DNA from: Candidatus Accumulibacter regalis
GTDB taxonomy: Bacteria; Pseudomonadota; Gammaproteobacteria; Burkholderiales; Rhodocyclaceae
DNA: 64,000 bases
Reading direction: 5' to 3'
Assembly: GCA_000585075.1 (NCBI GenBank)
Contig: JEMY01000004.1
Span: 186,001-250,000 of the forward strand
The notes below the pieces were generated by a model. The model did not search any database. It saw only the letters and a program-made list of their open reading frames with translations, and was not told the origin of the DNA. The position numbers and the translations under genes are program-made. Positions 785 through 16,584 of this stretch are shown piece by piece. How positions within the stretch are numbered: the first letter of the stretch is position 1; each line of letters starts with the position of its first letter.

Positions 785-1834
785 TCACGCCCCCGCAGGA
801 ACGCCCTTAGCCCTTGGCCGCCGCGCGCCACCGCGCCCGGCAGCGAGCAGTCCAATGGCCAGTACCAGCAACGGGAGAGTTCCCGGGAGCGGCACTGCGG
901 CGTGGTAGGTTGCCGCCGCCATCAGTTGGTGAACCTCGGTGGTCGGATGGATCGGATCCCAGAAGACATAGCCCGCCGGATTGGCAACCTGCCCGAATCC
1001 GGGAATGAAGGCTGGCGTCGTGGCGTTGGTGAACCCGAATGCCGACGGATTCGCCTCTACCGATTTGAGCAAGCCGAACATATCAACCGGAAAGAGCTGC
1101 ATCTGCAGGGTGGGATCGGCCATCAAGCCGGTGAGCAGTGCGTCGAGCTGCGTATTGAACGCGACGGTGAGGAACGCCAGGAGCGGCTGGGTGCCCGCTG
1201 GAAGCGTTGGCCCGTAGCCGTTGAAGAACGGCGCAGTGCTGGCGTCGATCTGATTCGGCACGACCACGCGCTGCGCGCCGTTGGCGTCAAGCTTGCGCAG
1301 CTCGAGTTCGAATTCGGAGAGGGTGGCCGCCACGGCAGCCAGGCCGCTGGCAACGCTACCCGTCAGGGTTGCCTGCAGGAGGTTCTGCGCGCCGCCCCAG
1401 AAAAGGACCATCTGGTCAGGCGAAAAGCGATTGCCGGCGCTTGCCGCCAGGAAGTCGTCGATCTGCTTGCCGGTATTCGAAACCGGTTGTACCTGCCCCG
1501 GAATGGCGATCGAATTCCGTAGCCGCGTTCCCGGACCGATCGCTGAACCCGCATACGCATAGCCTGTTCCACCCGTGCCCTGCTGACTTGCCTCGGCGCG
1601 CGGAACGTTCATCGCATCGGCCAGGTAGTCCACCCAGATTGGACCGTTGGACATTCTGCCCGCGTAATAGGGCGGCGTGGGTGGATCGGGAGTCAGTCCC
1701 AGGGCAATACTGTCGGCATAGACGTTGCCAACGTCGGAAAGGCTGTCGCCAAAAACGACGATCTGTCCGGCCCACACCCACGACGGGAAAAAAGCCACGA
1801 TGACGATGGCCAGAAAGGATCTTAGAGTGCTCAT
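785..1834 (-). CDS. PEP-CTERM-type GDSL/SGNH hydrolase
   Basis: A 349-residue exported hydrolase. It starts with a signal peptide (MSTLRSFLAIVIVAFF...WAGQ), followed at once by the SGNH block I motif FGDSLSDVGN with the nucleophilic Ser. Block V, DPIHPTTEVH, supplies the Asp and His. The C-terminus carries a sorting signal: VPLPGTLPLL, a hydrophobic helix, and then a basic tail (GRGGARRPRAK), a VPxP variant of PEP-CTERM. The protein is therefore probably processed by an exosortase and sent to the envelope or exopolysaccharide matrix. Esterase or lipase substrate is unknown. The start at 1834 was chosen over a longer in-frame extension because GGAGAC lies just upstream and the signal peptide begins there. 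A sigma-54-like promoter and a 17-bp element lie upstream. Confidence 0.85.
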   Translation of the reverse strand: MSTLRSFLAIVIVAFFPSWVWAGQIVVFGDSLSDVGNVYADSIALGLTPDPPTPPYYAGRMSNGPIWVDYLADAMNVPRAEASQQGTGGTGYAYAGSAIGPGTRLRNSIAIPGQVQPVSNTGKQIDDFLAASAGNRFSPDQMVLFWGGAQNLLQATLTGSVASGLAAVAATLSEFELELRKLDANGAQRVVVPNQIDASTAPFFNGYGPTLPAGTQPLLAFLTVAFNTQLDALLTGLMADPTLQMQLFPVDMFGLLKSVEANPSAFGFTNATTPAFIPGFGQVANPAGYVFWDPIHPTTEVHQLMAAATYHAAVPLPGTLPLLVLAIGLLAAGRGGARRPRAKGVPAGA

Positions 1835-1992: not shown

Positions 1993-2008
1993 AGCAAGTT
2001 TCACACCA
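1993..2008 (-). promoter_or_regulatory. Candidate sigma-54 promoter of the GDSL PEP-CTERM gene
   Basis: On the minus strand the sequence reads TGGTGTGAAACTTGCT. GG and GC are separated by exactly 10 bases, and the TTGC of the -12 element is intact; the TGGCAC of the -24 element is only partly matched. It lies about 160 bp before the GDSL start. Sigma-54 control of PEP-CTERM genes (PrsK/PrsR with RpoN) is known in related floc-formers. Confidence 0.5.
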
Positions 2009-2071
2009 CGATATGCTATACACATTAAATCAGCCCGCTAGAAAACGCAGAAGGTGGCCGGCGGACGAGAG

Positions 2072-2088
2072 TGTAAAGAATTCCGACA
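2072..2088. promoter_or_regulatory. 17-bp element shared by the two PEP-CTERM-type genes
   Basis: TGTAAAGAATTCCGACA is an imperfect palindrome centred on GAATTC. An identical 17-mer occurs at 16568-16584, upstream of the other PEP-CTERM-like gene, in the same orientation relative to its gene. It lies 65 bp upstream of the -24 GG of the candidate sigma-54 promoter, the usual position of an enhancer-binding-protein site. Confidence 0.55.
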
Positions 2089-15516: not shown

Positions 15517-16251
15517 TCAGACCGAGTCGAGCAGATTGGCCCAGGTTTGCGGCTCGGGAATGGCGCAGACCTGCGGGTCGGAAACGACCCGAACCAGCGT
15601 AAAAGTATCCCCGCCGTCACTTAACTGCAGAGTGTTACAACTTACGGCGGCGAAAGCGATATTGCTGTGCGACAGGCCCCATTCCCCCGACGTATCCACG
15701 AGCGTCGTGGACGAAAAAGCATTCGTGAGCGCATTCCATGTGAAGCTGCCCTTTTCCATGCCATCCTGTCCGCTGGGATCGAGGATCGAACTTCCGTCTT
15801 CGGCCATCATGTAGCTTCCGTCAGACAGGAAAGTGATAAGCACCGTGCTGGCAGCTTGTCCGCCAGCGGTGGCATACCAGGAGCCGACAATGGCGCTGGT
15901 TGGGCTGGTTACGCGATTCAGCGTGACGCCACCAGCGATCGTCATCGTGTCACCGGAAATGCCGATCGAGGTCAGGCCCGAGTGAGACAACCCCCATTGC
16001 CCCGACGTGTCCACGAGCGTCGTGAACGAGAAAGCACTGGTGAGCGGATTCCAGGTGTAGGTGCCTCTTTCCATGCCGTCCTGCCCACTGGGGTCGAGGA
16101 CCGAACTGCCATCTTCGGCCATCCAGTAGCTTCCGTCTGCAAGGAACGTGATGACCGCAGTGCTGTCAGCCTGTCCGAGGTGGGTGCCATACCAGCCTCC
16201 CACAATGGGTGATGCGTGCGTTGGTAGCGAACCGAGCAAGCTGATTGGCAA
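15517..16251 (-). CDS. Two-repeat PEP-CTERM-like exported protein, apparently frameshifted at both ends
   Basis: The open frame encodes two tandem repeats of about 95 residues. Each has IVG(G/S)WY, ITFL(A/S)DGSY, MAEDGSS(V/I)LDPSGQDGM and TTLVDTSG(Q/E)WGLSHS; function unknown. It ends in the start of a sorting signal (IPEPQTWANLL) and then stops after DSV. The neighbouring frame continues with LGLMAAFVRRRSI, the missing hydrophobic and basic half of a PEP-CTERM signal. At the N-terminus the frame opens only at a TTG (16251), while ATG 16288 in another frame gives MKPLHDLFAFSL, which would join LPISLLGSLPTHA as a signal peptide after a one-base correction. So the intact gene ran from 16288 to about 15430, and this copy is either decaying or mis-sequenced. 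Confidence 0.65.
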   Translation of the reverse strand: MPISLLGSLPTHASPIVGGWYGTHLGQADSTAVITFLADGSYWMAEDGSSVLDPSGQDGMERGTYTWNPLTSAFSFTTLVDTSGQWGLSHSGLTSIGISGDTMTIAGGVTLNRVTSPTSAIVGSWYATAGGQAASTVLITFLSDGSYMMAEDGSSILDPSGQDGMEKGSFTWNALTNAFSSTTLVDTSGEWGLSHSNIAFAAVSCNTLQLSDGGDTFTLVRVVSDPQVCAIPEPQTWANLLDSV

Positions 16252-16500
16252 CGAGACTGAACGCGAACAGATCGTGAAGTGGTTTCATCGTTGGACCCCA
16301 AAAAAAGCCGCAATCGGAGAAATTTCTCCTGGAAACAGCAAGGTGCGCGGGAATCCAGTCGCAGGCAAGCTGCGGCAACGGTGTGTCCCCCACACGTTCC
16401 ACTACTCCCCTGACCGAAGGGGCCTGCTGCGTCGCAGGCGAAACGGGAACGCCGCAAGAACTGTGCGGCGGGCGGGACGCAAGCGAATATGCAAACTGCA

Positions 16501-16517
16501 AGCACAAAGCATGCCGG
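16501..16517 (-). promoter_or_regulatory. Candidate sigma-54 promoter of the PEP-CTERM-like gene
   Basis: The minus strand reads CCGGCATGCTTTGTGCT: GG and GC are 10 bases apart, with CATG after GG and a TGTGC -12 element. It lies about 220 bp before ATG 16288 and 53 bp downstream of the 17-bp element at 16568, the same layout as in front of the GDSL gene. Confidence 0.5.
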
Positions 16518-16567
16518 AAAATACTTTGTCATGGAATCAGGGCGTTGTGTGTACGCCGAATTCGGAC

Positions 16568-16584
16568 TGTAAAGAATTCCGACA
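16568..16584. promoter_or_regulatory. Second copy of the 17-bp PEP-CTERM-associated element
   Basis: TGTAAAGAATTCCGACA, identical over 17 bases to 2072-2088 and in the same orientation relative to its downstream PEP-CTERM-type gene. Confidence 0.55.

Follow-up and report, generated by a model that had tools for sequence, protein, structure and literature searches.

The locus raises a simple question: is a 17-bp word that stands upstream of two minus-strand genes the activator site of a σ54-dependent control region, and, if so, which activator would act there and how? The window, i.e. the whole 64-kb stretch of DNA analysed, comprises positions 186001-250000 of contig 4 in a genome of 4.63 Mb and 85 contigs. 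Its features are listed in Table 1.

Table 1. Features of the two box-promoter regions, in window coordinates
Feature	Position	Strand	Remarks
PrsR-type box (Haft motif 1), TGTCGGAATTCTTTACA	2072..2088	-	Sequence scan and published motif; PrsR binding putative
IHF-like 13-mer TAGCGGGCTGATT	2028..2040	-	Differs from YAANNNNTTGATW at 2 positions; lies -33 from GG, the preferred place; weak alone
σ54 promoter TGGTGTGAAACTTGC, gene 1	1994..2008	-	GG 2007-2006, GC 1995-1994; 64 bases from box
Gene 1, GDSL hydrolase (PF00657)	785..1834	-	ATG 1834; longer GTG ORF from 2023; profile and eye
PrsR-type box, same 17-mer TGTCGGAATTCTTTACA	16568..16584	-	Sequence scan; PrsR binding putative
IHF-like 13-mer CAACGCCCTGATT	16535..16547	-	1 mismatch to YAANNNNTTGATW; -32 from GG
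σ54 promoter CGGCATGCTTTGTGC, gene 2	16502..16516	-	GG 16515-16514, GC 16503-16502; 52 bases from box
Gene 2, two similar repeats, end ...PEPQTWANLLDSV	15517..16251	-	Signal-peptide-like start ATG 16288; ORF reading

The box, its promoters and the two window genes

A preliminary description of this DNA had reported that the 17-mer occurs twice in the same relative orientation, and the scan bears this out: both copies are exact and lie on the minus strand, and they are the sole matches in the window at up to three mismatches. Chance recurrence within 64 kb, already held to be implausible, was ruled out, as 0.03 such matches are expected and two copies were reached in none of 100 shuffles. The window 17-mer represents a single form of a degenerate box, approximately TGTCGR-N5-YTTACA, an imperfect 17-bp dyad with TGT/ACA ends which we take to be akin to other NtrC-family sites. 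Only the two copies match this consensus without mismatch in the window; 11 more places carry one or two mismatches, with promoter-like words downstream of one of them.

Both boxes are followed by GG[CT]-N8-TGC, and in each copy the σ54-like promoter that had been claimed is present as GG-N10-GC with TGC at -12; the genome encodes one RpoN above cut-off. The distances of 65 and 53 bp given earlier are right if the G itself is counted, whereas strictly between box and GG there are 64 and 52 bases. Judging from the promoter positions, transcription would be expected to start near 1982 for gene 1 and near 16490 for gene 2.

In the available text of Haft et al. 2006 (PMC1569441), a 17-nt motif ending in TTTACA together with a σ54 motif is described before proteobacterial PEP-CTERM genes, the spacer between motif 1 and motif 2 having a mean of 62.8 (SD 10.6) nt and a range of 32-92. 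Matching phylogenetic profiles led there to a kinase (PrsK), a response regulator (PrsR) and a TPR protein (PrsT), and PrsR was proposed as the activator of the region formed by motif 1 and the σ54 motif 2. Both window boxes are 17 nt long with TTTACA at the 3' end, and their distances to GG lie inside the published range. The genome encodes adjacent prsK-prsR-prsT genes (846.1, 738.9 and 879.9 bits for PrsK, PrsR and PrsT by NCBIfam, all above cut-off), which adjoin an XrtA-type glycosyltransferase gene of family TIGR03013. These features fit an assignment of the window boxes to this control region, a class published in 2006, with which they share the box, the downstream promoter, the spacer range, genes that by eye are of PEP-CTERM type and the Prs proteins. 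They differ in their genes, one of which is a VPLPG variant and the other frame-broken.

Gene 1 matches PF00657 (E = 1.2e-17), and by eye it begins like a signal peptide and ends in a tail of the VPLPGTLPLLVLAIGLLAAGRGGARR type, a C-terminal anchor of the VPLPG kind. In gene 2 (15517-16288, minus), the signal-peptide-like start and the C-terminal anchor are each out of the frame of the body: IPEPQTWA is in the body frame, and the remaining tail (LGLMAAFVRRRS, hydrophobic) is in another. Because start and tail sit in a different frame from the body, gene 2 looks broken, as a pseudogene or through an assembly error. Homologues were found in two of 40 relatives, too few for dating the frame break; the one in relative G038 ends in VPVPATAWLLGSGLLGLIGVARRKVA. 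Neither gene is a member of TIGR02595 (no match at E≤1), and sorting-signal models gave no match to either gene in Pfam (E≤0.01) or NCBIfam (E≤1); the third reference in these searches, part of L143, was an arbitrary and uninformative stretch. The earlier statement that a PEP-CTERM-type gene follows each 17-mer on the minus strand thus stands for the strand and, by eye, for the tails, but not for agreement with a curated model, and the frame of gene 2 is broken.

The leader of gene 1 (about 150 bases, 1835-1983, minus) contains a perfect 8-bp hairpin, CCTTCCTG...CAGGAAGG. A special fold of this leader was ruled out, since z was 0.32 and 122 of 200 shuffles folded equally well or better.

Distribution of the box and its relation to PrsR

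When the whole genome was scanned at up to three mismatches, 19 box sites were obtained, against none in the reversed control. The exact 17-mer makes up three of the 19, i.e. both window copies and C3:3091, where the box precedes a gene ending in TPEPATWLLALPALLAMRRKLLT. With a regulon pattern of TGTCGR-N5-YTTACA, a spacer of 48-109 and GGY-N8-TGC, the genome has 22 distinct sites (17 at spacers of 48-78 and six in the longer-spacer set, one being common to both; the spacer at C56:68610, for example, is 63). It is hardly credible that the window copies are a chance or recent duplicate of a functionless repeat. The two 17-mers are indeed identical, the N5 core included; against this, their flanks differ, both have a σ54 promoter at the phased distances, and the same box recurs across the genome.

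By position, 11 of the 22 box-promoters lie upstream of TIGR02595 matches; one more is that at C3:3091, two belong to the window genes and eight precede no recognisable PEP-CTERM gene. A tie of genome-wide hits to PEP-CTERM genes, on which the earlier reading depended, was therefore found at 12 sites beside the window pair and is lacking at these eight. Downstream of the eight were found a giant protein of SdrD-B type, a gene truncated at the end of its contig, a PqqD/HPr-kinase-like gene and a YfbK-like von Willebrand protein (each of the last two about 570 bases off), or nothing recognised. Conversely, the genome has 25 TIGR02595 matches above cut-off, and the box is upstream of 13 of them and absent at one mismatch in 12. 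The box allows a listing of the likely PrsR regulon from sequence alone. The giant protein with SdrD-B repeats, of more than 1900 aa (incomplete in the stretch examined), and the PqqD/HPr-kinase-like gene are separated by a divergent pair of box-promoters (G000:C13:20182-21034; L141, L142).

To which regulator the box belongs may be judged from its distribution. PrsR scores above cut-off in 27 of 41 relatives, and each of these 27 has at least five box-promoters; the 14 without it have none in 10 cases, one in two cases, 12 in G005 and nine in G029. In 369 genomes of the class, PrsR and box occur together in 72, the box without PrsR in 12, PrsR without the box in 34 and neither in 251 (Fisher p = 2.5e-37). 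The link has exceptions on both sides: at least one box-promoter is present in 12 of 263 PrsR-negative class genomes, and the strict box-promoter pattern is absent from 34 of 106 PrsR-positive ones. These exceptions bear on the idea that another activator of the NtrC family, and not PrsR, binds the box in some or all hosts. For this speak the box-promoters of G005 and G029, two to four box-promoters each in the PrsR-less class genomes G166, G237, G246 and G382, and the plentiful NtrC-type paralogues. The sets in G005 and G029 point either to draft assembly, as PrsR may be missing from draft genomes through an assembly gap, or to another activator. In view of the strong co-occurrence over the 369 genomes and of the 27 PrsR-positive relatives, we regard a different activator as improbable and keep PrsR as the preferred candidate.

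Spacing of box and promoter

In the 41 relatives, box-promoters with a spacer of 48-78 gave 345 matches, against two for the reversed pattern; phasing therefore cleans regulon lists. Among the 150 matches listed of these 345, the spacers lie at 50-54, 63-67 and 72-78, and none at 55-62 or 68-71. The longer spacers (all 122 matches listed) form two peaks, 85-88 and 97-99, between which a few are thinly scattered. Short spacers of N17-47 yielded 10 matches in the 41 genomes; seven fall at 40-43, and the remaining three have spacers of 24, 29 and 38. One of the seven, in G035, which is without PrsR, looks like chance. Altogether the clusters are centred at 42.1, 53.0, 64.5, 75.1, 86.5 and 97.7, and 266 of 282 tabulated matches (150 + 122 + 10, a small number of boxes that have two promoter-like words, e.g. 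C26:89981 of G000, being counted twice) fall inside windows that were drawn after the histogram had been seen, the 10 short spacings being taken by hand from coordinates. A line fitted to the cluster means rises by 11.11 bp from one cluster to the next (bootstrap range 11.01-11.21, sites being treated as independent although orthologues are not). The preliminary description had noted that the two window spacings differ by about one helix turn, and the clusters of the relatives in 11.1-bp steps fit this remark.

A similar picture was obtained outside the relatives. The class-wide scan found 230 box-promoters in 84 of 369 genomes, and among the matches listed, 130 of 135 (52 genomes; G000 and G039, already in the relatives' set, left out) are in the same three central clusters. 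The slope of the class sample, 11.48 (11.19-11.82), comes from three clusters only and lies slightly above the 11.11 obtained in the relatives. A world scan gave at least 120 stretches, 80 with labels and 40 without, some non-Proteobacteria being among the latter. It was scored in preset bins, into which 13 of 31 positions would fall by chance and which had been fixed from the earlier sets before the world spacings were tabulated. In named genomes, 67 of 71 proteobacterial sites among the matches listed fall in these bins (p = 6e-21; the label 'Proteobacteria' was taken from record titles), and so do 34 of the remaining 40 unlabelled loci (p = 2.5e-8). Sites from other or unassigned phyla fall in the bins in four of 11 cases, as by chance, and form an accidental negative control, although PEP-CTERM tails follow two of these 11. 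A PEP-CTERM tail was detected in the directly downstream ORF at 42 of the 71 proteobacterial sites among the matches listed and at 20 of the 40 unlabelled loci (19 of 34 inside the bins, one of six outside), by a strict regular expression that misses long or cut genes. Two loci not labelled Proteobacteria, L219 (a Nitrospira MAG, spacing 62) and L223 (an unassigned bacterium, spacing 53), have a box-promoter directly before a PEP-CTERM tail; they may be mis-binned contigs or reflect a wider spread of the switch.

These spacings suggest that the box sits whole helix turns from the promoter. Common descent of a few promoters, instead of a helical constraint, could also give clusters; some sites of the genus sample look orthologous (e.g. 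those with like spacers in G008, G011, G014 and G022), and the bootstrap ignores kinship. We consider this very improbable as the source of the clusters, since the same ones are seen class-wide and in world samples of alpha-, beta-, gamma- and deltaproteobacteria, up to six of them follow in even steps of about 11.1 bp, and the IHF-like element described below likewise steps by about 11 bases (mostly -33/-32, fewer -44/-43).

The step length of a helical constraint can be compared with known loops. In the text available from PMC8501960, lac loops studied inside living E. coli are given about 11 bp per turn, a value with which the 11.1-bp step agrees. For the LuxO-qrr system of Vibrio, the available part of PMC4740811 reports 61 σ54 enhancers with loop lengths clustered about 11 bp apart, and predicts tolerance of the qrr enhancers to 10-11-bp changes. 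An NtrC-type activator, σ54 and loop lengths in steps of about 11 bp are common to both systems. According to the same source, the qrr case differs in having another activator, tandem sites, one genus and loops of about 80-120 bp; here there is usually one strong box, and the set is larger and Proteobacteria-wide. A second strong box as a rule was ruled out: in the 160 bases upstream, 13 of 156 sites have another box with at most one mismatch, where 0.2 would be expected, and at the same stringency none of the 156 sites has a second box inside the spacer.

Section 7 of Haft et al. 2006 describes the spacer by mean, SD and range, and the clusters are resolved here. The available main text of that paper (PMC1569441) nowhere uses IHF, integration host, periodic or helix turn, and has helical once, in a reference title. 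A helical spacing rule for PEP-CTERM enhancers was not found in print in open-licence full texts. Within the literature searched, the class has been known since 2006, and what is new are its members here and the quantitative spacing rule.

The spacer, the proposed loop and candidate small transcripts

IHF has the consensus YAANNNNTTGATW, and at the IHF-assisted σ54 promoters nifH and Pu its site lies between the activator site and the -24/-12 promoter. When 90 spacers were aligned on GG, positions -32/-31 showed AA and positions -26 to -24 favoured T-T-G, as in the core of the IHF consensus. IHF-like words (at most one mismatch) occur in 79 of 156 spacers and perfect ones in 25, compared with about 18 and about 1.2 in dinucleotide shuffles. 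At the 153 sites with full flanks, 77 spacers have an IHF-like word, against 12 upstream and 11 downstream stretches of equal lengths. The words start mainly at -33/-32 (35), then at -44/-43 (8), and in the opposite orientation at -20/-21 (13). The likeness to nifH and Pu lies in the order of the sites, IHF being represented here by a consensus match only. The genome encodes one IHF-alpha above cut-off, alpha being the subunit searched. In open-licence full texts, a search for PEP-CTERM with integration host factor returned only papers with unrelated titles.

Alternatively, the AT-rich element of the spacer might be an intrinsic bend or an UP-like element and no IHF site. The A+T content is 0.59 in the spacers, as against 0.45 in the upstream and 0.53 in the downstream flanks, and the perfect consensus is present in only 25 of 153 spacers. 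The excess over dinucleotide shuffles and the preferred positions and orientation of the matches argue in the other direction, so we find this explanation possible but doubtful and prefer an IHF-like site.

Taken together, a PrsR-type box and a σ54 promoter looped at whole-turn spacings very probably explain both window elements. The reading of the 17-mer as an activator box with a σ54 promoter is supported by phased recurrence at hundreds of sites, by the PEP-CTERM tails of the world sample and by the co-occurrence with PrsR. In this model a phosphorylated dimer of PrsR, an NtrC-type activator, would bind the dyad TGTCGR-N5-YTTACA, with its site centred near -98 for gene 1 and near -86 for gene 2, counted from where transcription is expected to start. 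The spacer would then bend, an IHF-like site presumably aiding in about half of the sites, and the AAA+ domain of PrsR would contact σ54 RNA polymerase at the -24/-12 promoter. Because the loop is so short, box and promoter would need a fixed helical orientation, and mainly whole-turn spacings (about 11.1 bp) would be kept in evolution because the partners must face each other. PrsR binding, looping, occupancy by IHF and use of both window promoters are what we infer from these patterns.

With rather less assurance, though we lean towards it, the model may be extended to the whole proteobacterial PEP-CTERM enhancer class as a helix-locked, IHF-assisted short loop, whose six even spacer classes would record about 11.1 bp per turn in vivo; the same PrsR/σ54 switch may drive a terminator-ended small transcript in the genus, like LuxO with the Qrr RNAs. 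If the loop reading is true, the spacer statistics of 2006 look broad because they combine evenly spaced helix-locked classes. The spacings would be a naturally occurring collection from which to study the helical repeat of short activation loops in vivo, and phased spacing makes looping activation sharply and cheaply testable. A related case is pepA of Aquincola tertiaricarbonis, described in the available text of PMC9850573 as an RpoN-dependent PEP-CTERM gene whose mapped start lies behind TGGCAC/CTGCTT, the predicted enhancer being upstream. It shares with the window genes a σ54 promoter and a predicted upstream enhancer; there the start was mapped, and here it is predicted from sequence. 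That text reports no binding of PrsR to the enhancer. In the literature consulted, PEP-CTERM proteins and RpoN are linked to the formation of flocs by activated-sludge bacteria; Candidatus Accumulibacter is a sludge bacterium, and this link matters for the host.

At C3:36693 (L138, G000:C3:36193-42693, 501-793), no recognised gene accompanies the box-promoter, and a stretch of 198 bases runs from the expected start to a strong intrinsic terminator. Look-alikes are present in G008, G014 and G022 (L294-L296). From the expected start to a strong hairpin followed by Ts there are 160-198 bases in this set and 354 in G014, whose stretch contains an insert. Beyond the terminator the sequences of this genome, G008 and G022 diverge, and those of G014 and G022 stay alike. 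The stretch is a candidate PrsR-dependent small RNA, and its transcript in this genome possibly contains a small ORF. Rfam gave two matches for the candidate, both far below gathering scores, and a plasmid search gave no match; a PrsR-dependent small RNA for PEP-CTERM systems was not found in open-licence full texts. Of 89 sites scanned, only C3:36693 and L190 have such a terminator in the first 420 bases from the expected start. At the latter, on the minus strand downstream of the box, a ribosome-site-like GGAGG is followed by a tiny Gly-Met-rich repeat peptide and a strong terminator; here the PEP-CTERM switch would control a very small product.
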